DNA of 38,547 nucleotides from Candidatus Parcubacteria bacterium (GTDB lineage: Bacteria; Patescibacteriota; Minisyncoccia; UBA6257; HR35): assembly GCA_026004535.1 (NCBI GenBank), contig BPJI01000003.1, positions 1 through 38,547 of the forward strand, read 5' to 3'. How positions within the stretch are numbered: position 1 is the first letter of the stretch; every line of letters begins with the position of its first letter. Positions 7,622 through 38,547 of the stretch are shown here, piece by piece. A model generated the notes under the pieces. The model did no database searches. It was not told where the DNA came from and saw nothing but the letters and a program-made list of their open reading frames with translations. The position numbers and the translations under genes are program-made.

Positions 7622-7622
7622 T

Positions 7623-11200: not shown

Positions 11201-11408
11201 TTTCTCTTCTCTTTGGTCTTGTTTTTAATTCTTCTAAACTTATTCTGTATCCATTCGTTCTTCTTAATAACCTAGTCATTTCAGGAAAACTCAACTCTCT
11301 TATGTTAAAATTTGCTAAACCTTTTTCTAATCTAATTTGCGCTATCTTTTTTAAATCCTCAAAAAAGTCAGGATCTACTCTAACTGGTGGTGTATTTTTT
11401 CTTTTCAT
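11190..11408 (-). CDS. Ribbon-helix-helix-like small protein
   Basis: PPVRVDPDFFEDLKKIAQIRLEKGLANFNIRELSFPEMTRLLRRTNGY pattern. Confidence 0.5.
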   Translation of the reverse strand: MKRKNTPPVRVDPDFFEDLKKIAQIRLEKGLANFNIRELSFPEMTRLLRRTNGYRISLEELKTRPKRRENEK

Positions 11409-18379: not shown

Positions 18380-18563
18380 TTAACTCTCTTTCACTTCCAC
18401 CCCCTTTAAAAAGTAACTATGTAACTTATATGTCTTTCAAGTATATATATTTTTCTATTTTTGTTTTTTTGATTTTTTCTTTTTCTTCTCTTCTTTTTTC
18501 ACAAAGAGGGGCGTATCTGTATAAGATTCTCTTCTTCGTTCCCAATATGTTTTCATTTTAAAA

Positions 18564-18595
18564 ACTTATTTTTATTATTATAAAATAATCACTAA
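18564..18595 (+). promoter_or_regulatory. Second copy of shared operator/promoter element
   Basis: See 1043-1072; next to TATA-like aaatttataaat at 18595-18605. Confidence 0.55.
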
Positions 18596-18604
18596 AATTT
18601 ATAA

Positions 18605-18862
18605 ATGTTTTTCTTTTTATATTACTTAATTTTTTTAATGATAAGAATGACAAAAACGAATAACACAATCAAAAAAGTTGAATTCTATCACAAAAATAAA
18701 AGTTTTGTCTTCATAAAAACTACTTTTGGAAGATTTTATAACGGAACAATTATCAGCTATACAAAAGAGTATATAATTCTTTCAGATAGAGTTTTAAATG
18801 AAATTCTAATCCCAATCGAAGAAATTGAAATAATTGAAAGACATAAAGAAAAACAAAGTTAA
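18605..18862 (+). CDS. Sm/LSm-like small beta-barrel protein (start probably 18638 or 18647)
   Basis: SFVFIKTTFGRFYNGTIISYTKEYIILSDRVLNEILIPIEEIEIIE resembles Sm1/Sm2 pattern. Confidence 0.45.
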   Translation: MFFFLYYLIFLMIRMTKTNNTIKKVEFYHKNKSFVFIKTTFGRFYNGTIISYTKEYIILSDRVLNEILIPIEEIEIIERHKEKQS

Positions 18863-18863
18863 A

Positions 18864-20120
18864 ATGCTAAATGAAATTAACGAAGAAAAGATTAAGTTAA
18901 TTTATGAAAATCCTTTTATTAATTTAGAAGAAGAGGAGGAAAAAGCAAAACAAAAATTAAAAGATATTTTTTTCACAATTAAAGATATTTTCCAGTATTA
19001 TTGTGATTTAAATGAAGAGTACTACACAATAATACCTTTGTGGGTGATTGGAACTTATTTTCATAAAAATTTTCCAAGTTATCCATACTTATTCCTTAAC
19101 GCTACTAAAGGCTCAGGTAAAAGTAGGACAGTTAACTTAATAGTTACTCTCTCAAAAGAAGGTATAATGTTAAATTCCTTAACAGAAGCGGTATTGTTTA
19201 GAACTAATGGAACTTTAGGAATTGATGAGTTTGAAAGTGTTGAGAGAAAGGGAAAAGAGGGTTTAAGAGAATTGTTGAACTCAGCATATAAACAAGGAAC
19301 CTTAGTTAAACGTATGAAAAAAGTTAAAACCTTAAAGGGTGAGGATCAAGTTGTTGAGACCTTTGAAGTTTATAGACCTATTGTAATGGCTAATATATGG
19401 GGTATGGAAGATGTTCTTGGAGATAGGTGTATAACCCTTATTTTAGAAAAGTCAAACAAACCAGACATAGTAAATCTTATTGAGATCTTTCGTGACGATT
19501 CTACTGTTAAAAAGGTAATTGAGGATTTAAAAGAGATTTCTGAGGGTAGTTTGTGCCGTTTTTTCCGTTTGTGTCGTAAGGAAAATATATATAATATATA
19601 CAAAGAATGGAATAATTTTATTAAAGAAAACGTCACTAACGTTACTAACATCACTAACACCACTAACGTCACTAACAGCACTAGATATATTAAAGAACCA
19701 GATACTCTATTTAAAGTAATAAAAGAAATGAAGGTTATGGGTAGAGATTTAGAATTATGTTTTCCTTTACTTTTAATTGCTAATGAAATATCTGAAGATC
19801 TACTTGAAGAGACAGCTAATATTTTATCAGATATAATCTTAAAAAAAAGAGAAGAAGAATTTATAGAGAACAAAGATATAAATTTAATTGATTTTGTTTC
19901 TCAAAAAGAAGAATCTGAATCTTTTGTTTCTATTAAAACACTAACTTATGAATTCAAAAATTGGTTATCTAGTGAAGAAGAATGGATAAATGAAAAGTGG
20001 ATGGGACGTGCTTTAAAAAGATTAAATCTTATAAAATATAAAAGAAAAATAGGAAATAGAGGTAGAGAAGTTATTTTAGATGTTAAGAAGGCTAAAGAAA
20101 AAATAAAGATGTTTAAATAA
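18864..20120 (+). CDS. Replicative helicase-like P-loop/AAA+ ATPase, complete copy (ORF opens at 18834)
   Basis: PYLFLNATKGSGKSRTVNLI Walker A; GTLGIDEFES Walker B; VLGDRCITLIL arginine-containing motif. Confidence 0.72.
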   Translation: MLNEINEEKIKLIYENPFINLEEEEEKAKQKLKDIFFTIKDIFQYYCDLNEEYYTIIPLWVIGTYFHKNFPSYPYLFLNATKGSGKSRTVNLIVTLSKEGIMLNSLTEAVLFRTNGTLGIDEFESVERKGKEGLRELLNSAYKQGTLVKRMKKVKTLKGEDQVVETFEVYRPIVMANIWGMEDVLGDRCITLILEKSNKPDIVNLIEIFRDDSTVKKVIEDLKEISEGSLCRFFRLCRKENIYNIYKEWNNFIKENVTNVTNITNTTNVTNSTRYIKEPDTLFKVIKEMKVMGRDLELCFPLLLIANEISEDLLEETANILSDIILKKREEEFIENKDINLIDFVSQKEESESFVSIKTLTYEFKNWLSSEEEWINEKWMGRALKRLNLIKYKRKIGNRGREVILDVKKAKEKIKMFK

Positions 20121-20385
20121 AAAAAGTAACCACCCTAGAAAAATTAAAAAAATATTTAAATAATAGCTTTTTAGTATTTTAACAAGAAAGAGGAAAGAAA
20201 AAAGATAGGTTTTTCCTAAACCTCTTTTTTCCTATCTTTTTTCAAAGGTTGCTTCAGCCCCTTTTCCTCTTTCTTCTTTTTTACTACTTCTTTTTAATCT
20301 TTTACTTATTTTTAACTATAAAATAGTTACTAATAATACTAATAAAAATAGAAATATTTATAAACCTATTTTTCTTATATTAATC

Positions 20386-20583
20386 ATGCGAAGAATAAGA
20401 AAAGTGAGGAAATTTGGTAACTCGTGGGTTATTTCTTTATATAAATTTGATATATTAGACTTTGGGATTGAAGAGGGTTCTCTTGTTGATATTTCTGATA
20501 TAGTTGTTTTAAATGGAAATAAAAAAGAATCAAGAAATAATAAAAGTAAGGAGGATAAAGGTAATAAAGAAAATGAACAATGA
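20386..20583 (+). CDS. AbrB/MazE-like protein (copy 2)
   Basis: Identical to 1125-1322. Confidence 0.7.
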   Translation: MRRIRKVRKFGNSWVISLYKFDILDFGIEEGSLVDISDIVVLNGNKKESRNNKSKEDKGNKENEQ

Positions 20584-20801
20584 CTCTATCAGATTTTTTA
20601 ATACAAACAATAGTACAAACAATTTCAAATCTTATTTCAAACTCTGCTTGGTTCATTTTGTTTTATTTGGGGTTTAAAATGATAACGAAAGAAATTAAAA
20701 AATTTTCAAAGGAAATCCCTTTGTGGATAGAAAATTATCATAAAAAACAATTAGAGAGGATAAGAATACAAGAAGCTTTAAATATGAGGAGAATGAGATG
20801 A
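20580..20801 (+). CDS. Small membrane protein (copy 2)
   Basis: Identical to 1319-1540. Confidence 0.6.
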   Translation: MTLSDFLIQTIVQTISNLISNSAWFILFYLGFKMITKEIKKFSKEIPLWIENYHKKQLERIRIQEALNMRRMR

Positions 20802-21031
20802 AAACAAAAAATGAAAGACTAAAAGGTTTAATTAACTTTTTAAACGAAAGAAACGAGAAAATGAATAAACCATTTGCCGAAAGAGTAGTTGAAGATCTAA
20901 AAGAAGGTGTTGTTTTCTTTTGCCCTAATTGTAAAAAAAGAAAAGAAATGAGTTATAGACCAGTAGTTGTTTTATGTTCTTGTGGTTATTATATGCAGGA
21001 AATGAAAGGAGGTATTAAAAAATGGCAGTAA
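20798..21031 (+). CDS. Zinc-ribbon-like protein (copy 2)
   Basis: Identical to 1537-1770. Confidence 0.65.
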   Translation: MKTKNERLKGLINFLNERNEKMNKPFAERVVEDLKEGVVFFCPNCKKRKEMSYRPVVVLCSCGYYMQEMKGGIKKWQ

Positions 21032-21231
21032 AAAAGATTGGGCGAGTCTGGCGAACAAAAAAAAGGAGCACTGATGTTGTTATGAGTGGTCAGTTGATAG
21101 ATGGCGCTAAAATAGGTATTATAAGAGCTAAAGATAAAAATAAAAGGCTTATCCCAGACACGTATGATGTTATTGCTTTCGTTGAACCGCCAGTAATTAA
21201 AATAAAAAACACCCAAGAAGAAAATTTTTAA
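21022..21231 (+). CDS. Hypothetical protein (copy 2)
   Basis: Identical to 1761-1970. Confidence 0.6.
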   Translation: MAVKKIGRVWRTKKRSTDVVMSGQLIDGAKIGIIRAKDKNKRLIPDTYDVIAFVEPPVIKIKNTQEENF

Positions 21232-21247
21232 AATAAAAAATTAAAGA

Positions 21248-21367
21248 ATGGAAAATAAAGAAGAGTGGGATTGTCCTTTACATGATGAATTTGAAAAAGG
21301 ATGTCATCATTGTTGGGAATGTTTAAAGATAAAAATAATAAAAGATGGGGGCGATGATTTCGACTGA
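21248..21367 (+). CDS. 39-aa Cys/His microprotein (copy 2)
   Basis: Identical to 1987-2106. Confidence 0.55.
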   Translation: MENKEEWDCPLHDEFEKGCHHCWECLKIKIIKDGGDDFD

Positions 21368-21369
21368 AG

Positions 21370-22062
21370 ATGGTTAACATATTTGGTTATAATTTAAATA
21401 TAAATGTTCAAAGTATATTTGGAACGGGGTTTTTTGTAGTTTTATTAGTCATTTTTATTGGTATTATTTTAATTGGTTTAATTTTTATTTTAATGTTTTT
21501 TAAAACTTACAAATATAGGGTTGTTTTATTTGAAAATGTTTCTAATCAAGGCATCCAGCCAGTAGCTAGAACAAGAGCAAAAAAAATAAGAATTGGTCAG
21601 GGTGGAGCCGAAATACTAAAAACATGGGCTGGCAAACTTTATTTACCTGCTACAAAAATGGTTGGGAAAAATGTTTATTGGTTTTATAAAGCTAATGATG
21701 GTTATTTTTATAATGTTGGGTTAGGTGATTTTGATACTAGATTAAAAAACTTAAAACTTGAACCAATTGAAAGAGATATGAAATTGTTTTATTTAAATAT
21801 TGAAAGAATAGCCCAAGATTCGTATAATAAACCTAAATTTTTAGAGAGGTATGGGGTTCATTTATTATTATTTGTTTTTTTATTAGTTTTTATTCTCGGT
21901 ATGTGGTTTATTATAGGAAAAATAGGTGATGTAACGAAAACACTATCAAATACACAACAAGCTAATAAAGAAGTTGTTGAAGCATTAAGAGACATTTCTC
22001 TCTCACTTGAAAGAATAAGAGGGACACAACCAGTAGGATTAGTTTCCGTTCAAGGAGGATAA
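21370..22062 (+). CDS. Two-TM membrane protein (copy 2)
   Basis: Identical to 2109-2801. Confidence 0.7.
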   Translation: MVNIFGYNLNINVQSIFGTGFFVVLLVIFIGIILIGLIFILMFFKTYKYRVVLFENVSNQGIQPVARTRAKKIRIGQGGAEILKTWAGKLYLPATKMVGKNVYWFYKANDGYFYNVGLGDFDTRLKNLKLEPIERDMKLFYLNIERIAQDSYNKPKFLERYGVHLLLFVFLLVFILGMWFIIGKIGDVTKTLSNTQQANKEVVEALRDISLSLERIRGTQPVGLVSVQGG

Positions 22063-22063
22063 A

Positions 22064-22237
22064 ATGGTTTATATAGAAATTATTATTTTGATAGCAATTC
22101 TTTTATTTATAATTATATTTATGATATTAAGAGAAATTTTTAATAAAATAGATGAAAGGAGGTTTATAAAGAAATATGGAGAAGAAGGAATTGGAGCAGC
22201 TAGAGAAGGAGCTCTCAAAACTGAAAGAAGAAAATGA
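22064..22237 (+). CDS. 57-aa single-TM protein (copy 2)
   Basis: Identical to 2803-2976. Confidence 0.55.
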   Translation: MVYIEIIILIAILLFIIIFMILREIFNKIDERRFIKKYGEEGIGAAREGALKTERRK

Positions 22238-22379
22238 ATTTTTAAAACAACAGATTTTATTTTTTAACGAAGTTGAAAAGTTAGAAAATAAAAGTTATTT
22301 TAGGTTTAGGTTGTTAGAGGTACTTGAGTTAATTCACGAGAGTCTTGAAAAAATTGAAAATAAAATAGAAAAAAAGTAG
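22176..22379 (+). CDS. Coiled-coil small protein (copy 2)
   Basis: Identical to 2915-3118. Confidence 0.6.
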   Translation: MEKKELEQLEKELSKLKEENEFLKQQILFFNEVEKLENKSYFRFRLLEVLELIHESLEKIENKIEKK

Positions 22380-22382
22380 AAA

Positions 22383-22769
22383 ATGGAAAAAGGAATAGTT
22401 GATAAAGGAAGTAGTGATATAATGGATATAATAATTACAAAAGGAATGTTTTTTTTAATGGTTTTTATTGTACTACTTGTGGTTATTCTTCCTTTATTTG
22501 TTTTACCCCTTTTTGAAATTGTTAAAGAGAAAAATGAGTATTATTGGTTTTGTTATTTGAATGGAAAAGAAGCTTATCAGTATAAGCCTCTTATTACATT
22601 ACCCATAATAAACTTTGGCTATCCTAAATACTATTGTTTAGAAAAAAACACAGAGGTTGTTAATAGCAATACTGGTGTTTATGATGATTACGAAATAGTT
22701 AAAACAAAATATAATATTGTTGTTTACAAGAATGATTATGAAAAATACTTTAAACCAAAAGGATTATAA
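22383..22769 (+). CDS. Single-TM paralogue A (copy 2)
   Basis: Identical to 3122-3508. Confidence 0.65.
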   Translation: MEKGIVDKGSSDIMDIIITKGMFFLMVFIVLLVVILPLFVLPLFEIVKEKNEYYWFCYLNGKEAYQYKPLITLPIINFGYPKYYCLEKNTEVVNSNTGVYDDYEIVKTKYNIVVYKNDYEKYFKPKGL

Positions 22770-23028
22770 AAAAATAGATTTTATTTTTAGAGTGGGTATT
22801 GCTTCAATTTTATTTAGTGGTTTAATACTTTTCTTTATTTCTCTTAATGATTTTAAAAATTTGTCTTTATTTTGTCATAGTAATAATGAAACCAGCAAAA
22901 TAAATATTTTTAAAAATAAAATGTATTGTAAAGATAATGAAGGAAATTTAAGAGAAGTAATTAAAACAAATTTTGGGTTTTTTTATAAAGAAGATTTTGA
23001 GAAGTATTTTCAAAATAAAAAACCTTAG
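22717..23028 (+). CDS. Single-TM paralogue B (copy 2)
   Basis: Identical to 3456-3767. Confidence 0.65.
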   Translation: MLFTRMIMKNTLNQKDYKKIDFIFRVGIASILFSGLILFFISLNDFKNLSLFCHSNNETSKINIFKNKMYCKDNEGNLREVIKTNFGFFYKEDFEKYFQNKKP

Positions 23029-23031
23029 GTA

Positions 23032-23466
23032 ATGAAAATGACAGACTATCTAGGAGATTCCTCATCATTAGTAGAATCTCAGTTTAATATGATTTTGAAG
23101 ACTCTCTATGATCTAAGAGAGATAGCTTCACATATTGAAAGATTGTATGCTCAAATAAATATTTCAGATGAAATTAAACAGAAAATTAAAATACATCTTG
23201 TTAAATCTTTTTTTGTTAATTCCTCACCACTTTTAAATGAAAATTTTGTTAATTCATTAAAAGATCAAATATTATCTTTAAGACCTAAAACAATAAAAGT
23301 ATTAGATAAAGATAATCCAACATCAGAACCTACATTTAAATTAATTTTTGATTATGAGTTAGAGAAGGAGTTAGATGAAATGCTTATAAAAATCCATAGA
23401 CAACTACAAAAAGAAGGATATTATGGTTCAAAGAGAGATCTAGGTAGAATTATCGGGAGGTTCTAA
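23032..23466 (+). CDS. Hypothetical helical protein (copy 2)
   Basis: Identical to 3771-4205. Confidence 0.65.
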   Translation: MKMTDYLGDSSSLVESQFNMILKTLYDLREIASHIERLYAQINISDEIKQKIKIHLVKSFFVNSSPLLNENFVNSLKDQILSLRPKTIKVLDKDNPTSEPTFKLIFDYELEKELDEMLIKIHRQLQKEGYYGSKRDLGRIIGRF

Positions 23467-23470
23467 GAAG

Positions 23471-24340
23471 ATGGCTTTTTACAAAACATTACATCCTGAA
23501 TTTGATGGTAAAACTGAAAGATATATAGATGATGCTTTATTTGAAAACCTAAAAGTAATGGCTAAAAAAATAGTAAATGATATGACTTTTCTTGGAATTG
23601 TTTTCTCCTCAACATTAGAAGTAAGAACTGGCAAATCCACATTTGCAAGTCAGATTGGTGAGTGCTACACTTCATTAATGAAAGAGCTTCATGGAATAGA
23701 ATTGCCTTGGGGGATTAATAATTTAGTGTTTAGACCAGTTGATTTAATCTACAGAAGTTTAGAAATGCCTCAATATTCCTGTATCATTTGTGATGAATGG
23801 GAAAACCCTAAGTATTGGACAGAACTTTATGATTCATTATCTCAATTCTTTCAAAAGCATGGTATAAAAAACCAATTTGTTTTGATATTAACACCTAATT
23901 TTTTTAAATTACCAGATACTATAGCAATTAATAGATCGGTTTTTGCAGTAGATATAAGGTTCGGAGATGATTTTGAAAGAGGATTTTTTAAGTTTTATGG
24001 CTTCCAAAAGAAAAAAATGCTTTATCTTTTAGGAAAAAAGAAACAGGATTATAATGCGGTTAAAGAAGATTTTAGAGGTAGGTTTGTTAAAGGATATGGT
24101 GGGCTTAATACTGAAGAATATATCAAAAAGAAGATTGAAGATTTAGAAAGATTTAAAGGTGATAGATTCAAAAAACTTCGTTATGTTGATAAATACGGCA
24201 CACCACCAGAACTTATTAGAAAATTATATTTGTCTTTACTCAAAAATAAAGGAATTACACAAAAAGAAATAGCAGATGTTTTAGGTGTTGAACAAACAAC
24301 CATTAGTGAATGGGTTTTAGGTAATTTTAGTCTTTCATGA
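23471..24340 (+). CDS. P-loop ATPase with C-terminal HTH (copy 2)
   Basis: Identical to 4210-5079. Confidence 0.65.
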   Translation: MAFYKTLHPEFDGKTERYIDDALFENLKVMAKKIVNDMTFLGIVFSSTLEVRTGKSTFASQIGECYTSLMKELHGIELPWGINNLVFRPVDLIYRSLEMPQYSCIICDEWENPKYWTELYDSLSQFFQKHGIKNQFVLILTPNFFKLPDTIAINRSVFAVDIRFGDDFERGFFKFYGFQKKKMLYLLGKKKQDYNAVKEDFRGRFVKGYGGLNTEEYIKKKIEDLERFKGDRFKKLRYVDKYGTPPELIRKLYLSLLKNKGITQKEIADVLGVEQTTISEWVLGNFSLS

Positions 24341-24402
24341 ACTAAGGTGACCTTAGTGCAAAGGGTAATAAGTTGTGAACTAAGGTCACCTTAGTGCAAA
24401 GG
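24338..24402. promoter_or_regulatory. Paired palindromic repeats (copy 2)
   Basis: Identical to 5077-5141. Confidence 0.7.
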
Positions 24403-24453
24403 CATTAATTAAGTGAAAAGTAAAGAGATTTAAAAAATTAACGTAAAGAAAAA

Positions 24454-25005
24454 ATGAATGGAGAAAAACCAAAGAAGAAAGTAGCAATTTATATTAGAAT
24501 ATCTACAGACATTGAGAAACAAAATTTAAATACCCAATTAGATCCATTAGTGGAGTATTGTAATAAAAATAACTATCAATATGAGATATTTCAAGATATA
24601 GCTTCTGGAGCAAAAGAATCAAGACCCAATTTAGATAAGCTTATGAGAATGATTAGAGAGCAAAAGTTTGATGCTTTGTTGGTCTGGAAAGTTGATAGGT
24701 TAGGTAGGAGCTTAAGACATTTATTACAAATATTACAAGAGCTAGAAAAGAATAAATGTGACTTTATTTCTTTAACTGAAGGCTATGATACCTCCACACC
24801 ACAAGGCAAATTAATATTTTCAATTGTTGGAGCCTTTGCTGAATTTGAAAGAGCAATAATAAGAGAAAGAGTTAAAGCAGGCATTATTAGAGCAATTAAA
24901 GAAGGAAAGAGGGTAGGTAGACCTGTTGGTTCTAAAGATAAGAAAAGAAGAAGGGTTTCTGGATACTTTTTAAGATGGCAGAATACACAACAAAAGACCT
25001 TATAA
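24454..25005 (+). CDS. Serine recombinase (copy 2)
   Basis: Same protein as 5193-5744; one silent T-to-C at 24627. Confidence 0.93.
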   Translation: MNGEKPKKKVAIYIRISTDIEKQNLNTQLDPLVEYCNKNNYQYEIFQDIASGAKESRPNLDKLMRMIREQKFDALLVWKVDRLGRSLRHLLQILQELEKNKCDFISLTEGYDTSTPQGKLIFSIVGAFAEFERAIIRERVKAGIIRAIKEGKRVGRPVGSKDKKRRRVSGYFLRWQNTQQKTL

Positions 25006-25379
25006 GATTAGTTTTGAAAAGAGATGAATTATTAATTTTAACGTTATTATTTTCATTTTTAATAGGCGCAAATTTAAATTTATATGCTGTTGTTAGCAAT
25101 GATTGTAAGATGCCTTATTTAATAAAACACAGGCCTATAATGGATTTTGATTACGATAGTAACAAACATAAACCTATAGCTGATTTTAGAGAAGCAAAAG
25201 TTTATTTTTTAACAGACTTTATGTCTATACCAACTCTTTCAAAAAGGATATATTTTTCATTAGGTGATTTGTTTCTTTATCTTTCTATTATTTTAATTTT
25301 TATTTATTCAGCTAAAGAGATTAAGAAAATAGTTAAAAAAAAGAAAAATAAAAAAACCTCCCCTCTAAAAACCACCTAA
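24975..25379 (+). CDS. Two-TM membrane protein (copy 2)
   Basis: Identical to 5714-6118. Confidence 0.6.
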   Translation: MAEYTTKDLIRLVLKRDELLILTLLFSFLIGANLNLYAVVSNDCKMPYLIKHRPIMDFDYDSNKHKPIADFREAKVYFLTDFMSIPTLSKRIYFSLGDLFLYLSIILIFIYSAKEIKKIVKKKKNKKTSPLKTT

Positions 25380-25495
25380 TTTTCCTTATAAAAAATCAAA
25401 ATAAAAAAACAAGTCTTTTTTTACTCTTTTTATTAAAAAAATAAAAAAAAGAAAAAGGGGGGCTGTTTTTTAACAACCCCAAAATTAAAGTTTAT

Positions 25496-26023
25496 TTATA
25501 GTGGTGATCCGCCACCACCTCTACCGCCAAATCCAAACCCACCTGTTTGCCATATTCTTACAAGGATTACAAGAACCCCTAGAATAAGAACAATAGCTGC
25601 TACAGAAAAGATTATAGGTAGTTTACTTGCTACTGTACTAACTCCAGAAGTCAAGTTGCCCGTTAAAGCCTTTGTTGCATTATCTTCAGCGCTTCCTGAT
25701 GTAAGCAAACCAGAACCAGTTAATGTTGAAACAATCACAAAGGCTATAATAACACCTATAACCAAAGCAACAACACCAAAGATAAGACTAGAAACAAGAC
25801 CACCCGAAACACCTCTCTTATCTTTTTTAAGAGATTTTTGAAGAGGTATCAAAACAGCCATAAACAAAATAGCAACACTAAAGATAGGATTAGAAACATC
25901 TTTTTCAAGGGACATCAAAACAACCATAAACAAGGCAACAACACCAAAGATAAGACTAGAAACAAGACCACCCGAAACACCTCTCTTATCTTTTTTAAGA
26001 GACGTTGTTTGTTGAAGTTGCAT
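25496..26023 (-). CDS. Candidate capsid/pilin-like protein (copy 2)
   Basis: Identical to 6235-6762. Confidence 0.5.
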   Translation of the reverse strand: MQLQQTTSLKKDKRGVSGGLVSSLIFGVVALFMVVLMSLEKDVSNPIFSVAILFMAVLIPLQKSLKKDKRGVSGGLVSSLIFGVVALVIGVIIAFVIVSTLTGSGLLTSGSAEDNATKALTGNLTSGVSTVASKLPIIFSVAAIVLILGVLVILVRIWQTGGFGFGGRGGGGSPL

Positions 26024-26116
26024 TTTTTCTATACCTATACCTCCTTTCAGCTCTATAAAAACTTAATTAAACTAAAGAAAAAACGATTTATAAATATATG
26101 TTTGAATGTTACGTTG

Positions 26117-26449
26117 TTACACTTCAGTAACTCTTCTGTCTAAAAATAACCATATAGCACATAATAAATTAACCACAACAAGAATAGACAGCCAATCTAT
26201 ATTTATAAACCCAGATGTTAAGGATAAAATGAGACTGACTATAAGTGTAGATAATGAAGCCATTAAAGCCCAAAAAGGATAATCAGCCTGACCTAATCTA
26301 GAAGACTGTCTATTTACCCCACTAAAAAATATAAAGAACCATATAAAAAAAAGAGTTAAAGGCACTAAAAAAGGCATGTTCGAGACTATTCCACCAATTA
26401 ATGCGTCTGGTGTTGATACGTTTGTTGGTATTTCATATATATATGGCAT
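26117..26449 (-). CDS. Multi-TM protein (copy 2)
   Basis: Identical to 6856-7188. Confidence 0.65.
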   Translation of the reverse strand: MPYIYEIPTNVSTPDALIGGIVSNMPFLVPLTLFFIWFFIFFSGVNRQSSRLGQADYPFWALMASLSTLIVSLILSLTSGFINIDWLSILVVVNLLCAIWLFLDRRVTEV

Positions 26450-26450
26450 T

Positions 26451-26882
26451 TTAATCAGGGAACCCTCTTAAAGTTTTGTATAGGTATAAACCGATAACAA
26501 ATATAATTAAAGATATAAAAACACCTGTAAAAATTTGAAATTCTGGTTTTCCACCAAATATTTTTGTGTTTATGGTTGAAAATATATTTTCTAGTATATT
26601 AAACAAAGTAGGTGGCGTTGGTGAAAAGGCGCCTGTACTTGGAACCGTTTGGGATCCTTGTTCTATATTTGATTTTATTATTGATTCATATGTAGATTCT
26701 GATGTTGTTTTTAGCTCTGAAGAATTTCCTATTTGTTTAGAATACAAATCTATTATTTCTTGGTCTTGTGTTATACTTACTGCAGGGTTGTTGTCATTAG
26801 AAAAGTTTATTAAAAATCCTATTAAGGCTACTGAAAAAAGTAGTAACATTACAATTCCGATTGTTATTTGTATTTGCCCCAT
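26451..26882 (-). CDS. Membrane protein (copy 2)
   Basis: Identical to 7190-7621. Confidence 0.65.
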   Translation of the reverse strand: MGQIQITIGIVMLLLFSVALIGFLINFSNDNNPAVSITQDQEIIDLYSKQIGNSSELKTTSESTYESIIKSNIEQGSQTVPSTGAFSPTPPTLFNILENIFSTINTKIFGGKPEFQIFTGVFISLIIFVIGLYLYKTLRGFPD

Positions 26883-26883
26883 T

Positions 26884-29800
26884 TCACCTATTTGATATTT
26901 TTACTAGTATTATTATGATTGCTAAGACCAACCAAACTATTGTTGCTCCATAAACATAACCTGTAGCATTTGAGAATATATTAAGGAAAAACAAACCAAA
27001 TACTCCGACCATAAAAGATGCTACTGTTAATACTGGGCTATGTGATATGCCCGCACCTAATATTGATAGGAAAATTAATAAACCAAAAATAATAAGAGCT
27101 CCACTGTAAATTTCACTAGGTTTACTATTTATTCCAATGGCTCCAGAACCAACCAAATAATCATCTTTATAAAGTTTTACTTTTATTGTTGAGTTTCCTA
27201 TAGAAGAGTTTAAATTACATATTAATGTTCCTGTAGTTGCAACTACTTCTTTTGTACATAAGCTTGTTCCTAGAATATCTTCTTTTGAAACAACAAGAGT
27301 AACTTTCGATTGGTTATTGCTTAATATAGTAAAGTCAGCCTTTACACTGTTTGTTTGATTATCATAAGAAATTGTGAAATTTATATCTTTTTCTTTAGTG
27401 AAATCGGGTGCTTTTATTTGCGAGCCCAAAAGATTTATTTCAATCAAACACTGGAATAGAGAGGGATTTTGACATATAGCTTTTGAGTCTGTTATTTCTT
27501 TTAAGTTTTGCCCATATTTCCTTATTATTATCTTATAAATAACACTATCAGGGGTCATACTAGCTGTTGTTTCTCCTTTTACATCTGTTTTTGGTCTTTC
27601 AACTAAAAGATACTGACCAGTTTCTGTATACTTTCTATAAACTTCAACAAGAGCATCTTCTAAAGGTAAAAATGAGGTGTCTTTAATTGAGAATTTAAAA
27701 GAAACAGCATCAGTTGTTGGTAAATCATAAAGACTTATATTTTGGTATAGAGTACTTTTATTTAGAGTTTCGTTTTGTAAAAAATAAAATTCATTCACAA
27801 ATTGATCTGCTTTATATTCAACAAGCCCATCAACATTATAAAATTCATTATTACTTAGATTATTATTTAAACAAACCCTAAATGGATTAATCTTATCATA
27901 AGATTTATTGAAAGATTCAATAGTATTTCCAGTGGTACTTTTTATTTTAATATCGACCTTTCCAGTTGTATTATCACCAGTACCACTTAATTGTGACCTA
28001 TTCTTTTCATTATAAATAGTAAAGTTGTATAAAGTATAAGTGAAAGAGCTACAATTATCAATACCTAAATTTAAGATTGTTTGATTAATTGAAGAGGTAT
28101 TATATTGTAGGGTGTCTTGATTTATTACCCAGAACCAACTTACATTCACATCATTTGTTACACTAGGCGTTTCAAAAGTTGTTTTTAAAGTGAAATTATT
28201 ATTGCTATTTTTTGTTATAACAGAGCCTTTAAGTGAACCATTGTAAGAGATAAAAGAGGATGTTATATCAGAACCATTTGTTAAGAATAAAGATGTGAAA
28301 ACGTTTGATCCACCTTCAAGTATTTGTTTTTGGTATTGCTCATCATCATGGAACAGCCTATAACCCCAATATGTTGTTGAATAATTTAAATTACCAGCAC
28401 TATCATTTACATAAATTGTTAAATTTTTCCACGTCCCATCAGTCACATTGAAAGAGGTGGATGTAGCCGAACAATTTAAAGTGATATTTTGGTTTTTCCA
28501 AGAAAGCCAACAAGAATTTAAATTAAAGTTATCTGAAATTGAATAATTAACTGTTAAATTTGTATTTTTTCTATGATAAGTTATGTTACCTGTTGGGTAC
28601 GTTATTAAAATGCTTGGGGCAGTTGCATCAACCAATAAACTTCTATTTGAAGAATTAGTAATAAGACCATCTACATCTACAGCACCTATACTCCAATTAT
28701 AATTGCCCTCGTAAAGATCTTTAATGAAAAGATATGTACCATTGACTCCAGATGAATTAGTTTCGTTTACTTCTCCATTAAGAAATAGAGTGACATTTTT
28801 TATTCCTACTGGTGATGTAACCGACACATTAAAAATTATAGGGTATGGTGAACTATTATAAACTGCATTATTATTTGGAGAATTTAGAGTAATGTTTGGT
28901 AGTGATGGACCCCATAAATACATCTCCCATAGACTAATTACTGTTGCACCATAATTAGCACTTGGAACTAATTTATAATACCTATATTTTATAGTATTAT
29001 TTGTAAAATTATAAGTAAAGTTTCCCGCACTATTTGGTTGTGAAGTGATACTAATTATATTAGTATAAGTAGAATTATCATTACTACCCATAAATTGTGC
29101 GTCTTTAATAAGTGATGTTCCTGAAACATCATTATGTAAAGTTAAATTTGTTACGAGTTTCTCTGAACCCAAATCTATTCCAAAAAACCAGGGGGTAGTT
29201 GTTGATGTCTGAGCAAAAGAACTTTCGTTTCCATCAAATAACTTATATGGTTCCATACCACCACCAACCCCACTAGAAAAAGCTCGATAAGGTGGTGGGT
29301 AACTATTATTAATCATATTATGTGGAGAAACTTTAAGGTAAGTAACATATGATGCAAATTCATTTATATTAAGACCAAAAAAATTTGGTATCCACTCAAC
29401 ATAATCTCCTTCATTAACATTAGTGAATATACCAATAGTAAAATTCGTATTTTTATAAAAGTATTCTTGATTTAAATCTCTCCAAATTTTTTTTCTTTCA
29501 TAATGAGAACCTACTTTTTTTTGATAACAATCACCAATACCTTCTAGTGTTGGTATACAAATTGTTTCATAATCATCAACCAAAACGTTTTCATAATCTA
29601 AAATTTTAAAGTCAAAATTTTTATTAATTTTCAAATTATTTTTATTTAAATCATAAAAAGTTATTGATTTAAATGGTTTTTTATAGTCTGAATAAAAAGT
29701 AATATTAAATTCAGCTATTTTTGAATAACCAGGAGTTACTCTATAAACTAAAGGGGTTAAAAGAGTAATATCAGCTATTTTTGTCGTTGGTATACCTAAA

Positions 29801-29925
29801 AAAGAGTTTTTTATTGTTATTGTTTTTGTTTTATCTTCATATTGTTTTATATTGTCAAATTCTAAAGCACTTACGGTTCCAACTAACAAAATTCCAAAAA
29901 ACAATAAAATCAAAAGCTTCTTCAT
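26884..29925 (-). CDS. Large discoidin/Ig-like surface protein (copy 2)
   Basis: Identical protein to 7623-10664. Confidence 0.75.
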   Translation of the reverse strand: MKKLLILLFFGILLVGTVSALEFDNIKQYEDKTKTITIKNSFLGIPTTKIADITLLTPLVYRVTPGYSKIAEFNITFYSDYKKPFKSITFYDLNKNNLKINKNFDFKILDYENVLVDDYETICIPTLEGIGDCYQKKVGSHYERKKIWRDLNQEYFYKNTNFTIGIFTNVNEGDYVEWIPNFFGLNINEFASYVTYLKVSPHNMINNSYPPPYRAFSSGVGGGMEPYKLFDGNESSFAQTSTTTPWFFGIDLGSEKLVTNLTLHNDVSGTSLIKDAQFMGSNDNSTYTNIISITSQPNSAGNFTYNFTNNTIKYRYYKLVPSANYGATVISLWEMYLWGPSLPNITLNSPNNNAVYNSSPYPIIFNVSVTSPVGIKNVTLFLNGEVNETNSSGVNGTYLFIKDLYEGNYNWSIGAVDVDGLITNSSNRSLLVDATAPSILITYPTGNITYHRKNTNLTVNYSISDNFNLNSCWLSWKNQNITLNCSATSTSFNVTDGTWKNLTIYVNDSAGNLNYSTTYWGYRLFHDDEQYQKQILEGGSNVFTSLFLTNGSDITSSFISYNGSLKGSVITKNSNNNFTLKTTFETPSVTNDVNVSWFWVINQDTLQYNTSSINQTILNLGIDNCSSFTYTLYNFTIYNEKNRSQLSGTGDNTTGKVDIKIKSTTGNTIESFNKSYDKINPFRVCLNNNLSNNEFYNVDGLVEYKADQFVNEFYFLQNETLNKSTLYQNISLYDLPTTDAVSFKFSIKDTSFLPLEDALVEVYRKYTETGQYLLVERPKTDVKGETTASMTPDSVIYKIIIRKYGQNLKEITDSKAICQNPSLFQCLIEINLLGSQIKAPDFTKEKDINFTISYDNQTNSVKADFTILSNNQSKVTLVVSKEDILGTSLCTKEVVATTGTLICNLNSSIGNSTIKVKLYKDDYLVGSGAIGINSKPSEIYSGALIIFGLLIFLSILGAGISHSPVLTVASFMVGVFGLFFLNIFSNATGYVYGATIVWLVLAIIIILVKISNR

Positions 29926-30461
29926 GGTAAATCCTCGCCTGTATCTTTTGTAAACATGAAAATTCCAGTAATTAACCCTATAACAGCTAAAATATATGGT
30001 GAGTATAATATCAAATAATTAGATAAACTCTGCTCTTTAAGGTCTAAAGTGTTCTCTTGTGAAAGAAAATCTTGATAGGTGTTTGAAATAAATGCTGAAA
30101 GCACAATAAGGAAAATCATAAAAGCTAAATAAAAGAACAATAAATATCTTCTTTCAGAGGAATAAAAACCAAAAATAACTATTGAAAAAATTAAACCACC
30201 TATATAAAATAAAGGAACAAGCCATTTTGTTGTATTTACTATTGTTTGGGCAGGTGTAAACACATAATTTGCCTTTTCAGTTAAATTAATTGGTGTGTCT
30301 GTTATTGAAATATTACCCAAATCATTAATTATTGGTGAAATTTCATTAAAACCTAAACGTACTATTGAAGACACAAATAAAACAATTAATAGTACTATTA
30401 AAAAAGTTATAAGTAAAATACCGAACGCTAAAATCATCCCTATCCCTTTTTTATTTCTCAT
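29922..30461 (-). CDS. Multi-TM protein (copy 2, one M-to-I change)
   Basis: Six transitions relative to 10661-11200. Confidence 0.65.
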   Translation of the reverse strand: MRNKKGIGMILAFGILLITFLIVLLIVLFVSSIVRLGFNEISPIINDLGNISITDTPINLTEKANYVFTPAQTIVNTTKWLVPLFYIGGLIFSIVIFGFYSSERRYLLFFYLAFMIFLIVLSAFISNTYQDFLSQENTLDLKEQSLSNYLILYSPYILAVIGLITGIFMFTKDTGEDLP

Positions 30462-30669
30462 TTTCTCTTCTCTTTGGTCTTGTTTTTAATTCTTCTAAAC
30501 TTATTCTGTATCCATTCGTTCTTCTTAATAACCTAGTCATTTCAGGAAAACTCAACTCTCTTATGTTAAAATTTGCTAAACCTTTTTCTAATCTAATTTG
30601 CGCTATCTTTTTTAAATCCTCAAAAAAGTCAGGATCTACTCTAACTGGTGGTGTATTTTTTCTTTTCAT
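30451..30669 (-). CDS. RHH-like protein (copy 2)
   Basis: Identical protein to 11190-11408. Confidence 0.5.
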   Translation of the reverse strand: MKRKNTPPVRVDPDFFEDLKKIAQIRLEKGLANFNIRELSFPEMTRLLRRTNGYRISLEELKTRPKRRENEK

Positions 30670-31412
30670 ATTCTTTGATTAAATAACCCCCTTTCAATCA
30701 TTTTTTTCAATTCTCTATCTTCTTTAATTTTTATAAAAATTAAAATAAACCACATAATAACCCCTAAAGGTAAAAATCCTAAAAAGATTCTAAATAAAGT
30801 AAATAAAAACTTACCCATAAGCTGATCATTAAGATAAGCAAACGAAACATTACTAGAGATATAAAGTAAAGCAATAACAAAAAGATATTCAACAAAAATT
30901 AAAACCTGCCTAACATATTTTAAATAAGAAATCCCTAAAAATTCGCCATCTTTGTAATTACTTGAAGGTAACTTCAAAATATAGAACAAATTCAGAACAA
31001 ACAAAAATAAAATAACAAAAAAACCAATACTATAAATTATTGCTTGAGATGTTTTAAGCTCTTGACCAAAATAAGAAACTTCAAAAGTGTAACTCCATAC
31101 TTCATTTACACCTGCTGGGTCACCAATACCCGTAACTTTATAAGTACCTATTTGTTTTGTTAATGAGCCATCTAAAGTATAATTAAAAACACTCCCATCT
31201 TTAGTCATTGGAACATTGCCAACTAATTTTGTGCCATTTGGAGCGATTATAGAAGTAATATTAATGTATGTACAATCAGAACATGTTTGGACTAAATTTA
31301 TATTTTGTCCTTGTTTGTAAACACCTATCGATGCGTAAATAAAATTAATAAAAAATACCAAGACTATTGGAATTATTATTTTCTTTTTCATTTTATCTGA
31401 ACAGAGCACCAA
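30666..31412 (-). CDS. Ectodomain + multi-TM protein (copy 2, one A-to-T change)
   Basis: As 11405-12151; C to T at 30800. Confidence 0.65.
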   Translation of the reverse strand: MVLCSDKMKKKIIIPIVLVFFINFIYASIGVYKQGQNINLVQTCSDCTYINITSIIAPNGTKLVGNVPMTKDGSVFNYTLDGSLTKQIGTYKVTGIGDPAGVNEVWSYTFEVSYFGQELKTSQAIIYSIGFFVILFLFVLNLFYILKLPSSNYKDGEFLGISYLKYVRQVLIFVEYLFVIALLYISSNVSFAYLNDQLMGKFLFTLFRIFLGFLPLGVIMWFILIFIKIKEDRELKKMIERGLFNQRI

Positions 31413-34411
31413 CTATATGTTGGATCTTTTAAACATAATTCTCCTTTAAGGAGTGATATTTGTGTTTGTAGTTGATTTATTTGTTTTTGTTGTTCTTGAT
31501 TTTGTTTCCATAATTCAATAATCCAGTTTATACCATATATAACTCTTTTAAAACCAAATTCGTCTGTTTCAACCCATTCAGGATACATACTAGCTACATC
31601 ATCAGCTAAGAAACCTTTTTGAATACCGCTTGGAAATGTATAATAAATATTTTCTGTTTTGTTTGTGCAGGTGCCTTTACTTAGAAGAGAACCATTTTCA
31701 TCAAAAGTATCCTCTGTACATTCTAAATAACTTTTAACGCCCGCTAAAATTGAGGTGTTCTTATATTCAAATCTTTTTGGTGATAACAATAATAGTTTAT
31801 TTAAGCTAACATTATATTCTTGAATATTCTTCTTTGTAGTTATATCAGAAACACAGCTCCCGCCGACAATTGTTCCATTTGATAGAGTATAACAACCCGT
31901 AATGTTAACATCACCAACAACATTTAATTTAGCTGTTGGTGTTGTCGTCCCGATGCCGACGTTGCCTGTGTTCGTAATTCTAAACACCTCTGAATAAGAA
32001 CCAGCCGGAGGTCTTCTGCGAATTGTGAAAGTATCTCCATTTGAATAAGTAAGGTGGTCGCTTCCTCCTATATCTACTGCCCAGCTTGACAAACCTGTAT
32101 TTCCTTGGGATCCATCTGATTTTGTATTAGATTCTAGCGCCAAACCATTGTAGTTTGAGCTAACGCCAGAGTTAGAAATAATTCTAGAAAATCTGTTTGA
32201 AGCTACATTATGCGCTAATGTAAAAACTGGATCGCCAGAACCGTTAATCAAAATATTCCCAGCAACCTCTAACTTCGCCTGCGGGGTCGAGGTCCCGATG
32301 CCGACGTTGCCGCCAAGATAGATATTTGTAGTCCCACCAGGGATTGCTATGAGATCAACACCATTTCTGTTTGTTATATCAACATCGTAAGTCGTACCGT
32401 TACCAGCAATCACAAGACCAGAACCAGAATTGTAATACATCACTCCTCCACTAAAAGCCCCGGGCCAACCTTGAGACGATGAAATTTTTAATCTTCCCGC
32501 AACTTCAAGTTTTTCATTCGGACTCGTCGTTCCAATGCCGACGTTGCCTGTGTTCGTAATTCTAAACACCTCTGAATAAGAACCAGCCGGAGGTCTTCTG
32601 CGAATTGTGAAAGTATCTCCATTTGAATAAGTAAGGTGGTCGCTTCCTCCTATATCTACTGCCCAGCTTGACAAACCTGTATTTCCTTGGGATCCATCTG
32701 ATTTTGTATTAGATTCTAGCGCCAAACCATTGTAGTTTGAGCTAACGCCAGAGTTAGAAATAATTCTAGAAAATCTGTTTGAAGCTACATTATGCGCTAA
32801 TGTAAAAACTGGATCGCCAGAACCGTTAATCAAAATATTCCCAGCAACCTCTAACTTCGCCTGCGGGGTCGAGGTCCCGATGCCGACGTTGCCGCCAAGA
32901 TAGATATTTGTAGTCCCACCAGGGATTGCTATGAGATCAACACCATTTCTGTTTGTTATATCAACATCGTAAGTCGTACCGTTACCAGCAATCACAAGAC
33001 CAGAACCAGAATTGTAATACATCACTCCTCCACTAAAAGCCCCGGGCCAACCTTGAGACGATGAAATTTTTAATCTTCCCGCAACTTCAAGTTTTTCATT
33101 CGGACTCGTCGTTCCAATGCCGACTCTATCTGTATTGCTGTTCACAAAAAGCGTATTTGTGTCAACTGTGAAATTCTGTCCAACAACAACACTATTATTA
33201 AATGTCTTAGCTCCTGCAAAAGTCTGCGTTCCTGTAGAAACAACTCCTGATTGTGTTGCAGAAGCATCTCTTATTGTAACATTACTTGCGCTTGTAATTC
33301 TTCCTTGATTATCAACTGTGAATCTTCCCACTACAATATCTCCGCCATAAGTTCCTGCTGTTACTCCTGTGTTTGAAAGAGAGAAAGTTACATTTCCGCT
33401 GCCAACAAGTCTATCTGTCAGTGTTCCTGAAATTGACATGCCTGTTCCTTGGACAATAGATCCTTTAACAAAACCAGCGCTTGTGTTAACTTCCTGAAGC
33501 TGACTTAATGTTACAGCATCCTGAGGGTTTGTTGCATTAGCAAGGTTGATGATTTTGTTATTGTCCATGTTTATTGTTCCGTTGAAAACAGCAGAACCAT
33601 TTACATGGAGTTTTTGTTGTGGTGTTGTCGTCCCGATGCCGACGTTACCTGTGTTTGAATTTACAAACAAGACATTAGAGCCTACTGTGAAATTCTGGCT
33701 AAAAACATAGTTTCCTGTAGTGATCGTGTCGCCACCTCTCAAAATATAATAAGTATCACCCTGTGTTTTATTTATGAAATTTAATGGGTTGGTTTTTGAA
33801 TAATAAAGAGTATCAGCATAGGTTTTGTTAAAAGTAGCATAGGTGTCATTCCAAAAACCTAAATTATTTGTAAAGTTGCTTAAATGTGTATAGCCTCTAT
33901 TACCTAAATCATCTATAAAGAAACTTAAATTAGTCGGTCTATCTGTAATATTTAACCACTTAGAAAGGACTAAATAATTTAAATTTTGAGCAGAAGTTGT
34001 ATTCACATAACTATAAGGATTAGACTTAAGATAGTAATCATTTATATTAAAACTTGAAAGATTATAGTAGCCAAAACTTAAAATTTCTGATTTTGTAAAA
34101 TAATTCACTAGATTATTAACGGTATTGGTGATCCATTTGTCATAATTATTGTTTAAAGCATTATAAGGTAATTGTTTGAGGTGGTAATATTCACCAACAT
34201 CTCCACCCTGCAAACCTGTTAAATTATTATGAGCAACTTCTGTTGCATTTATTGTATAGTTATTGTAATTAATAATTTTTAGAGCGTTTTTTGTAGATTC
34301 ATCAAACCCAAACTGAGCTGAGACCGCCTGTAAAAGAAATAAAAATAAGAATAATAAAACAAGAATATAAAGAATAATGATTATTGTTTTCTTTTTTAGT
34401 TCCATTTTCAA
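31388..34411 (-). CDS. Tail-fibre-like S74 protein (copy 2, one T-to-N change)
   Basis: As 12127-15150; G to T at 31923. Confidence 0.85.
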   Translation of the reverse strand: MKMELKKKTIIIILYILVLLFLFLFLLQAVSAQFGFDESTKNALKIINYNNYTINATEVAHNNLTGLQGGDVGEYYHLKQLPYNALNNNYDKWITNTVNNLVNYFTKSEILSFGYYNLSSFNINDYYLKSNPYSYVNTTSAQNLNYLVLSKWLNITDRPTNLSFFIDDLGNRGYTHLSNFTNNLGFWNDTYATFNKTYADTLYYSKTNPLNFINKTQGDTYYILRGGDTITTGNYVFSQNFTVGSNVLFVNSNTGNVGIGTTTPQQKLHVNGSAVFNGTINMDNNKIINLANATNPQDAVTLSQLQEVNTSAGFVKGSIVQGTGMSISGTLTDRLVGSGNVTFSLSNTGVTAGTYGGDIVVGRFTVDNQGRITSASNVTIRDASATQSGVVSTGTQTFAGAKTFNNSVVVGQNFTVDTNTLFVNSNTDRVGIGTTSPNEKLEVAGRLKISSSQGWPGAFSGGVMYYNSGSGLVIAGNGTTYDVDITNRNGVDLIAIPGGTTNIYLGGNVGIGTSTPQAKLEVAGNILINGSGDPVFTLAHNVASNRFSRIISNSGVSSNYNGLALESNTKSDGSQGNTGLSSWAVDIGGSDHLTYSNGDTFTIRRRPPAGSYSEVFRITNTGNVGIGTTSPNEKLEVAGRLKISSSQGWPGAFSGGVMYYNSGSGLVIAGNGTTYDVDITNRNGVDLIAIPGGTTNIYLGGNVGIGTSTPQAKLEVAGNILINGSGDPVFTLAHNVASNRFSRIISNSGVSSNYNGLALESNTKSDGSQGNTGLSSWAVDIGGSDHLTYSNGDTFTIRRRPPAGSYSEVFRITNTGNVGIGTTTPTAKLNVVGDVNITGCYTLSNGTIVGGSCVSDITTKKNIQEYNVSLNKLLLLSPKRFEYKNTSILAGVKSYLECTEDTFDENGSLLSKGTCTNKTENIYYTFPSGIQKGFLADDVASMYPEWVETDEFGFKRVIYGINWIIELWKQNQEQQKQINQLQTQISLLKGELCLKDPTYSWCSVQIK

Positions 34412-35139
34412 CTAAACATTTTAAATAATCCACTTTGTTTTTTTACATTATTAATATCAAGATTTCTATTTCCCATAAATTCAGCAACCATTGAGTGTCT
34501 TCTTATAGAGCCCCTTTCTTCACCCCTCCATGCTCTACTTAATGTTGTATAAACAATAACCTCTAATTTAGCCACCAACATTCCAGCTTCGTAAAGTTTT
34601 TCTCTAAATAATTCATAAAAAAGATTTCTCCTTATAATCTCTCTTTCTTCTTCATTTACTTGTTTTTTTGAAAATAGTCTATTAAATTCTTTATCGATCT
34701 CTTCTTCTGTTGGTAAAGGAAACATAATATGATATTTTAAAAATAGTAAATCATTAAGTTCAGTCATAAACCGATACATTAATTTGTTAATCTTCTCATC
34801 TTCTAGATTACTCAAAAGATTATTTTTATTAATATAAAATCTTAATATTTGCATTATTGAGTCAACACCCTCATCAGTAAGAACCCTTTTTTCTCTTTCA
34901 ATTTCTTTCCATTCAATATTTCCAGTTTTTGAATTAATTGTAAAAATATCTTGTCTTAAAAGATGGAAACATTGATTTAGTATTGAATCTACATCTAATT
35001 GTAATTCAACAAGACCTTTCTCTTTTTCTTCTAAAGAAACAGCTAAATCTTGCATTTGAGCAACAGAAAGAGCGGACCTACTAGAAGAATCCATTGATTG
35101 AGATTCTGCTAGTATCCTTGCATATTCTTCTTCATTCAT
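34408..35139 (-). CDS. Helical protein (copy 2)
   Basis: Identical to 15147-15878. Confidence 0.65.
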   Translation of the reverse strand: MNEEEYARILAESQSMDSSSRSALSVAQMQDLAVSLEEKEKGLVELQLDVDSILNQCFHLLRQDIFTINSKTGNIEWKEIEREKRVLTDEGVDSIMQILRFYINKNNLLSNLEDEKINKLMYRFMTELNDLLFLKYHIMFPLPTEEEIDKEFNRLFSKKQVNEEEREIIRRNLFYELFREKLYEAGMLVAKLEVIVYTTLSRAWRGEERGSIRRHSMVAEFMGNRNLDINNVKKQSGLFKMFS

Positions 35140-37665
35140 TTTCTTCTTGCTGATTGGATTTCAAATATTTCAGATAGTGTTGAAAGCCTATATTTTGGTT
35201 TTTCAATAAATATTACTCCAGATGTTGTTGTTTTTGTCTTAAATCCTTTTAACCTTAAATATTTATTTATAGAAGGTATCTTAAAAGAGGCAGCTAATGT
35301 TTTTGAGGTTACTGATTTTCCAATTTGCAATGCTTCTTTAAATGTTTTCCCAGAACCAACAACTTTAAAAACTCCTCCTCTCCTTACTAAAACAGGTATT
35401 GATGGAGTAATCTTTGTTGATTGTTTTATCTGTTTGAAAGAAAAGGTAAATCGTAGTTGGTTATCTATAGATGGAACGGGGATTCTTAGCGGCTGCGGTA
35501 TTCTTGGGGTTTTAATTAATATTGTTCTTAAAAAGTTTCTTTGTTTTTGTTGCTGACTAAGTTTAGGGATTTGCAGTTGTATTGTTTTTTGTGTTTGATC
35601 TTGTAAATTTTGTTGTTGTGGTATTTGTATTTGTCTTGTTGTGAAATTAATTTTCTGTTTAGATGTTAAATTTTGACGCAAATTTTGTTGTTGAATGTTT
35701 ATTTGATCAATCTTTTGATTTTGTTTTATTGGTTGTTTATAAGAAGGAATTTCAAAAACACTAATTCTTTGCATAGAAATTTGTTTTGGTTGTGTTTTTT
35801 GTGTCGTTGTTGGCTCTGTTGTTATTGGTTTGATTGATATTGTTGTTTTTGTTTGCGCCTTATAAACAGACTTGGCAGGTATTTCTTTTATAACACTTTG
35901 TAAAACATTTGTTGTTAATGATGATATTTGATTTTTATTTAATGATTTGAATTGATTTGGTGATTTCTCTGTTGTCTTTTCAAAATAAATTTTTCTTTTA
36001 AATAATCCTCTTAAATCAAGAGCAAAAACTGCAAAATTTGAACTCTTTACTGGTTTTGTTTGTTTACCTCTTTTTAAAATAGAGGTTTTAGAAGAACCAA
36101 AACTTAAAGATAATCTTTTGTATAAAGGAATATTAAATCCACCCGAGATAAATTCAGATGTTGTTGTTTTTGTCTGTCTTCTAATAATCCTACCTGTTGG
36201 GAACTCTAAACCATACCTAAAGTATGGCGTTTCAAAACTTTTTATTTTTCCACGAGAAACAGCCCCCTGTACTCTAACTATTCTTGAACCTTGAGGAAAT
36301 CTAGCTAAAAAATTATTAAACATAACATCGGCTCTACCAACAAAACCAACTTTCCCACCTTTAGGTTCACTTATTTTTCCAATAAAGGTGGTTTTTGCTT
36401 GATTTTTTTGTATGTCTGTGACAATTTCTGATATTCGACCACTTCTTCCTAGATTAGTCTCAAAGGCTGTTTCAACCTTTATACCCCTCGCAGTTCTTGT
36501 CTCTCTAATAGTAGAAAAACCAGAAATACTTTCCTCCTTTATCATTGGTGTTCTTTTTGGAATTAAAGGACCAACTACACGACCGCCTATTTTTCCAACA
36601 CCCTTAAAGAAAACAATATCACCAGTAATTTTTCCTGCCGTGTATGAAGGATTAAGTCTTACATCTCTTGAGAACTGACCACTTGCAAAATATTCGAGTT
36701 GAGAGGTAATTAAACCTGAAAATCTAGGGGGTATCGTTGGAATTGTTTGTCTTGGATTTGTTACTAACTCCTTTCCAAAAGTATAATAAGATTCACCTCT
36801 CATTGTGAATGAACCAACAAAACCAGCGGTGAATTGACTAACACTTGGAACAAAACCTCTTGATGTTGAGAACCTGGTTTTTGAGACTTCTGTATTTATT
36901 TTATTAAAAACCTGTTGAACGGGATCACCTTTAAATTCTACTACTTCTAAAGTTGGTCTAACTTGAGAACGATAAAACTCCTTTTCCTCTGGAGTAGCTT
37001 CTCTAATAACTTGACCAGACTCACTTACTACAAAAACATTAGTAATTGGAACCTTCTTTTGACCAACTTTAACTTCTTCTCCAAAGAATCTAAATAATGT
37101 CCTACCGCCAAATTTTTCTTCACTTATTACCCTCTCCTGAAGATAAACCTCTTGATTTGCTAATTTTCTATTTAAAAGAGACATTCTTAATTTTTGTTCT
37201 GTTGTTGTCGGTATTTCTTGATTTTGTTGTTGTAATGATCTTGCTAGAGCAATTTGCTGTAAATTATTAGGGACTGGAGTTTGTCTAGGATTAATATTTG
37301 GTGACATAGCTAGGATTAATATTTGGTGACATAGGAACTTCTCTAACACCACTAGGTGAAGAAGGATCAACTACTAATGTTCCACCACCAACGCCTGTTC
37401 CAACTGGTGTTCCTGATCTTAATGATGAACCACCAGCTCGAGAAGGGGCAGATGGTCTAGGATTAATATTTGGTGACATAGGAACTTCTCTAACACCACT
37501 AGGTGAAGAAGGATCAACTACTAATGTTCCACCACCAACGCCTGTTCCAACTGGTGTTCCTGGTGGTAAAGAAGAAGATGGTTGTTTTGTTGGTTGAGAT
37601 GGTTGTGTCGGTTGTTTTTGTGGTTTTCTTCTAAAAATTCTTCTTAATGTATCACCTATACCCAT
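35136..37665 (-). pseudogene. Frameshifted copy of the 834-aa gene (split into 124-aa and 744-aa ORFs)
   Basis: 25-bp tandem duplication ctaggattaatatttggtgacatag near 37285-37334; ORFs 37291-37665 and 35136-37370. Confidence 0.85.
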
Positions 37666-37849
37666 TTAACTCTCTTTCACTTCCACCCCCTTTAAAAAGT
37701 AACTATGTAACTTATATGTCTTTCAAGTATATATATTTTTCTATTTTTGTTTTTTTGATTTTTTCTTTTTCTTCTCTTCTTTTTTCACAAAGAGGGGCGT
37801 ATCTGTATAAGATTCTCTTCTTCGTTCCCAATATGTTTTCATTTTAAAA

Positions 37850-37881
37850 ACTTATTTTTATTATTATAAAATAATCACTAA
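37850..37881 (+). promoter_or_regulatory. Shared operator/promoter element (copy 2)
   Basis: Identical to 18564-18595. Confidence 0.55.
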
Positions 37882-37890
37882 AATTTATAA

Positions 37891-38148
37891 ATGTTTTTCT
37901 TTTTATATTACTTAATTTTTTTAATGATAAGAATGACAAAAACGAATAACACAATCAAAAAAGTTGAATTCTATCACAAAAATAAAAGTTTTGTCTTCAT
38001 AAAAACTACTTTTGGAAGATTTTATAACGGAACAATTATCAGCTATACAAAAGAGTATATAATTCTTTCAGATAGAGTTTTAAATGAAATTCTAATCCCA
38101 ATCGAAGAAATTGAAATAATTGAAAGACATAAAGAAAAACAAAGTTAA
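37891..38148 (+). CDS. Sm/LSm-like small protein (copy 2)
   Basis: Identical to 18605-18862. Confidence 0.45.
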   Translation: MFFFLYYLIFLMIRMTKTNNTIKKVEFYHKNKSFVFIKTTFGRFYNGTIISYTKEYIILSDRVLNEILIPIEEIEIIERHKEKQS

Positions 38149-38149
38149 A

Positions 38150-38547
38150 ATGCTAAATGAAATTAACGAAGAAAAGATTAAGTTAATTTATGAAAATCCT
38201 TTTATTAATTTAGAAGAAGAGGAGGAAAAAGCAAAACAAAAATTAAAAGATATTTTTTTCACAATTAAAGATATTTTCCAGTATTATTGTGATTTAAATG
38301 AAGAGTACTACACAATAATACCTTTGTGGGTGATTGGAACTTATTTTCATAAAAATTTTCCAAGTTATCCATACTTATTCCTTAACGCTACTAAAGGCTC
38401 AGGTAAAAGTAGGACAGTTAACTTAATAGTTACTCTCTCAAAAGAAGGTATAATGTTAAATTCCTTAACAGAAGCGGTATTGTTTAGAACTAATGGAACT
38501 TTAGGAATTGATGAGTTTGAAAGTGTTGAGAGAAAGGGAAAAGAGGG
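38150..38547 (+). CDS. N-terminal part of helicase-like ATPase, continuing at base 1 if circular
   Basis: 398 nt + 859 nt = 1257 nt, the exact length of 18864-20120, in frame. Confidence 0.85.
   Translation, partial: MLNEINEEKIKLIYENPFINLEEEEEKAKQKLKDIFFTIKDIFQYYCDLNEEYYTIIPLWVIGTYFHKNFPSYPYLFLNATKGSGKSRTVNLIVTLSKEGIMLNSLTEAVLFRTNGTLGIDEFESVERKGKE

Follow-up and report, generated by a model that had tools for sequence, protein, structure and literature searches.

The window, the whole 38,547-nucleotide stretch of DNA analysed here, is best explained as a doubled assembly of one circular mobile element of ~19.26 kb, plasmid or virus-like, with at least two population haplotypes. Its second unit carries a 25-bp tandem duplication that frameshifts an 834-aa gene and that is probably a private, non-programmed change. 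We give all parts of this reading together, as drawn from sequence, a probability of about 0.7. As a regulatory switch the duplication is unsupported; most likely it is either an assembly artefact or an ordinary mutation, within a contig that is itself doubled. Where the second copy in a dimeric contig is broken, the reads need to be checked before any biological meaning is attached to the break.

Two units of one circular element

The window is an entire contig, and its computed length is exactly 2 x 19,261 bp + 25 bp. Copy 1 of the element occupies 1-19261 (19,261 bp) and copy 2 occupies 19262-38547 (19,261 + 25 bp, with 11 substitutions relative to copy 1). The junction of the contig ends (1 and 38547) is exact and falls inside a 428-aa ORF, and copy 2 stops where the unit of copy 1 starts. 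Thus, both marks of a doubled contig are present, an integer number of units and seamless joining of the ends. Doubled circular plasmids have been reported in long-read assemblies, with contiguity near 200% (PMC6966772), and under metaMDBG the duplicated share of circular plasmids had a median of 71-79% (PMC12424758). As in those cases, a small circular replicon is here written about twice per contig; in contrast to them, the two passes carry distinguishable haplotypes (the 11 substitutions) and a 25-bp difference.

The substitutions lie at 5366, 10928, 11023, 11066, 11117, 11144, 11180, 11539, 12662, 16313 and 17378 in copy 1, all within genes. The copies have no other indel beside the 25 bp, including none of 1-2 bases, and identical tracts of several kb lie between the variant sites. 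We considered whether the same consensus had simply been written twice and rejected this, because the copies are not identical. Transitions account for 10/11 of the substitutions (p = 1.3e-4 against an expected 1/3). Eight of these 10 are synonymous (p = 0.003 against an expected 0.33). This pattern of mostly synonymous transitions without indels points to population haplotypes rather than sequencing noise, and we read the 11 differences, from their sequence signature, as natural haplotypes under purifying selection. In this sense the two copies sample, on a small scale, the variation of a mobile element that is otherwise without match, and they make purifying selection on its genes visible.

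Because the length is exactly two units and the substitutions resemble those between haplotypes, we infer that the apparent dimer is most simply two concatenated variants. The assembler would have passed through both variants serially and then closed the circle, yielding two units. Specifically, a graph of two monomer circles that share identical tracts of several kb may have been read as one two-unit circle, and tracts of this length between variant sites are compatible with long reads.

The substitutions are unevenly spread: 7/11 fall within 612 bp (10928-11539 in copy 1, 30189-30800 in copy 2), a clustering reached in none of 20,000 random placements. Six of the clustered substitutions sit in a 179-aa gene, and at all seven sites copy 1 has G/C where copy 2 has A/T. 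The cluster looks like a recombined tract.

A private duplication in an orphan gene

By exact unit search, the sequence CTAGGATTAATATTTGGTGACATAG occurs once at the equivalent place in copy 1 (18024-18048) and twice, back to back, in copy 2 (37285-37309 and 37310-37334, with a 100% match between the units by TRF). This bears out what an earlier note on this DNA had claimed of the unit numbers, and also its start of the tandem at 37285; the end it gave, 37335, is one base too far. Exact copies of the 25-mer are found at 18024, 18171, 37285, 37310 and 37457, that at 18171 belonging to the second 147-bp repeat described below, and none is found in viral_contigs. The duplication is the sole perfect tandem of period 10-400 bp within the window, and the likelihood of meeting a perfect 25-bp tandem by coincidence is negligible. 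Identity at period 25 spans exactly 25 bases and extends on neither side, so that border homology is 0. The direct repeat that replication slippage would be expected to show at the border of the duplicated 25-bp template is absent, and the nearest direct repeat, TAGGA, is spaced 21 bp. The site had been placed exactly at the edge of a 108-bp exact repeat, but the unit begins 2 bp inside it (18024 as against 18022).

In copy 1, the 834-aa gene is intact (15875-18379, minus strand). In copy 2, the ORF is broken into 124 and 744 aa, just as the earlier note had it. The N-terminal fragment of 124 aa lies at 37291-37665 (minus strand), and the 744-aa ORF (35136-37370, minus strand) begins at a TTG in out-of-frame sequence. 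Its first in-frame ATG is at 37307-37305, inside the duplication, so the gene remainder (35136-37307, minus strand) comprises 723 aa, corresponding to residues 112-834. Both the 147-bp repeat and the 25-bp duplication lie in the Pro/Gly-rich N-terminal part of the protein.

The 834-aa gene is an orphan of low complexity. The protein has no match in Pfam or PHROG, no homologue in viral_contigs or genome_contigs, and no relative in phages (DNA or protein), in plasmids (DNA) or in the 60 nearest genomes. A search of 380 genomes of the phylum returned one weak match with in-frame stops and otherwise none. As the protein has no relative, there is no independent assembly by which one unit could be told from two. 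An AlphaFold model made without an alignment was uninformative (pLDDT 34).

The element holds further tandem duplications. In the 834-aa gene itself, a 147-bp (49-aa) in-frame repeat of 1.8 copies, exact over 108 bp, lies at 18022-18290 in copy 1 and 37310-37576 in copy 2 (both minus strand). A fibre-like 1007-aa gene contains a perfect in-frame duplication of 582 bp (12692-13863, minus strand, in copy 1; identical at 31953-33124 in copy 2), whose identity run of 590 bp implies an 8-bp border repeat. A 175-aa membrane-protein gene has an in-frame repeat spaced by 168 bp (6506-6741, minus strand), also present in copy 2. Thus, the 147-, 168- and 582-bp duplications are in frame and common to both copies, whereas the 25-bp duplication is out of frame and private. 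In 220 kb of sampled contigs from the same genome, we found zero full duplications with a unit of at least 20 bp and one partial one; by comparison, the element is enriched in tandem duplications (p about 0.002).

These observations bear on how the 25 bp arose. We lean slightly towards an error of the consensus, made at the repeat close to where the contig ends, and put only a little under even odds on a real, young null allele carried by some molecules. The distance from the duplication to the contig end is 1.26 kb; such closeness to either end is expected by chance in ~6.6% of cases and is a weak pointer to artefact. Reads crossing the end of a doubled linear contig would align preferentially to the internal copy, and the end of copy 2 may consequently be thinly supported. 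On the other side, a lone 25-bp consensus error is less expected in a clean consensus with no other indel, and the richness of the element in tandem duplications makes a real one more plausible.

Other explanations for the broken copy

Two plasmid variants could instead have recombined in the cell into a real 38.5-kb circle, in which copy 1 supplies the protein and a broken copy 2 is tolerated. We consider this unlikely, though the exact head-to-tail arrangement with distinct haplotypes is what it predicts, and multimers of circular plasmids have been found in reads (PMC12424758). A true cellular heterodimer and an assembly concatenation have the same appearance in sequence; the form of the assembly alone does not demonstrate the former, and doubled contigs are a common artefact. 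Moreover, the element encodes a serine recombinase with a Resolvase domain (5193-5744, plus strand). Serine recombinases resolve dimers in many plasmids, and this one is a candidate for that role. The null allele in a dimer that had been proposed is still conceivable but presupposes a physical dimer, and the substitutions and the two-unit length favour assembly concatenation.

An untrimmed 25-bp overlap at an original contig end, followed by rotation of the contig, is very unlikely. Two ends joined unmerged would leave an exact duplication with no microhomology, as is seen here, but the two contig ends already meet exactly at 38547|1, 1.26 kb away. This closure point falls within the 428-aa ORF, indicating that the contig had not been rotated to begin at a gene, and an overlap of 25 bp would be of unusual length. 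The literal form of the overlap, which the earlier note had listed, is rejected on these grounds; the broader idea of an artefact keeps its plausibility from the doubled contig, the repeat context and the nearness of the contig end.

We give little credence to phase variation in which the 834-aa gene is turned on and off as the 25-bp unit is lost and gained. Slippage or recombination could restore the single unit from a perfect 25-bp tandem, but a chance mutation that reverts does not amount to regulation. Phase-variable tracts normally consist of many short units. Here, one unit and two units were each observed once, at a site with no simple-repeat tract, and the two-unit form lacks the direct repeat that slippage has at its border. 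The gene also has no relative in which variation could be compared. Repeat number would set the reading frame, as in phase variation at simple sequence repeats, but two 25-bp units without a tract are a different arrangement, and the proposed slippage switch is unsupported. Another likeness is offered by the de novo tandem duplications of the penA beta-lactamase gene, which are short, perfect and intragenic, and revert at about 1e-6 to 4e-5 (PMC4169377). Those duplications keep the frame and were selected, and slippage duplications typically run from a direct repeat up to, but not into, its second copy (PMC4169377); the one described here is out of frame, has no border repeat and is under no known selection. 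Equally improbable, in our estimate, is a variant in which the element duplicates sequence in tandem at a high rate in genes for exposed or structural proteins, the out-of-frame 25 bp being a freshly caught case beside the shared 147-, 168- and 582-bp ones, and in which the 834-aa protein would be reversibly on or off among copies in one population.

Least probable is a functional split, in which overlapping frames would yield two coupled products, one the disordered N-terminus and the other the 723-aa body: the ATG at 37307-37305 lies just upstream of the new stop at 37293-37291 and the body retains residues 112-834, but no ribosome-binding site is evident ahead of the ATG (AATATTAATCCTAGCT) and no relative has a split form. 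For the preferred reading, a doubled assembly of two haplotypes, we infer no function of the duplication.

Gene content and host of the element

Besides the genes described above, the element encodes several small membrane proteins. The 428-aa protein is P-loop-like and has distant relatives in plasmids and in related genomes; matches of this gene and of a 289-aa gene are weak and at the level of domains only. Immediately upstream of the serine recombinase gene lies a 38-bp imperfect tandem repeat (5077-5156 and 24338-24417) whose units are partly self-complementary, possibly a recombination or control site.

The contig (C3) belongs to an 844-kb genome of 16 contigs, the largest seen being 556,583 bp, and the 16S rRNA of this genome scores bacterial. 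Assignment of the element to this host is uncertain, as its tetranucleotide usage correlates with that of the main contig at only 0.48-0.72, compared to 0.86-0.95 within the main contig. Contig C2 (L035, L045; G000:C2) departs from the main contig even more than the element does, and may be another foreign element.

A 1013-aa secreted, Asn-rich protein (7623-10664), with 49 N-x-S/T sites and Ig-like parts, adjoins small membrane proteins. Its style is reminiscent of archaeal surface proteins and raises the possibility that binning with the bacterium is wrong. A relative (E about 1e-40) is encoded in another genome of the order (L051, 5568-8684, minus strand), where it likewise adjoins small membrane proteins. 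The shared neighbourhood suggests that the two proteins belong to a family of mobile elements.
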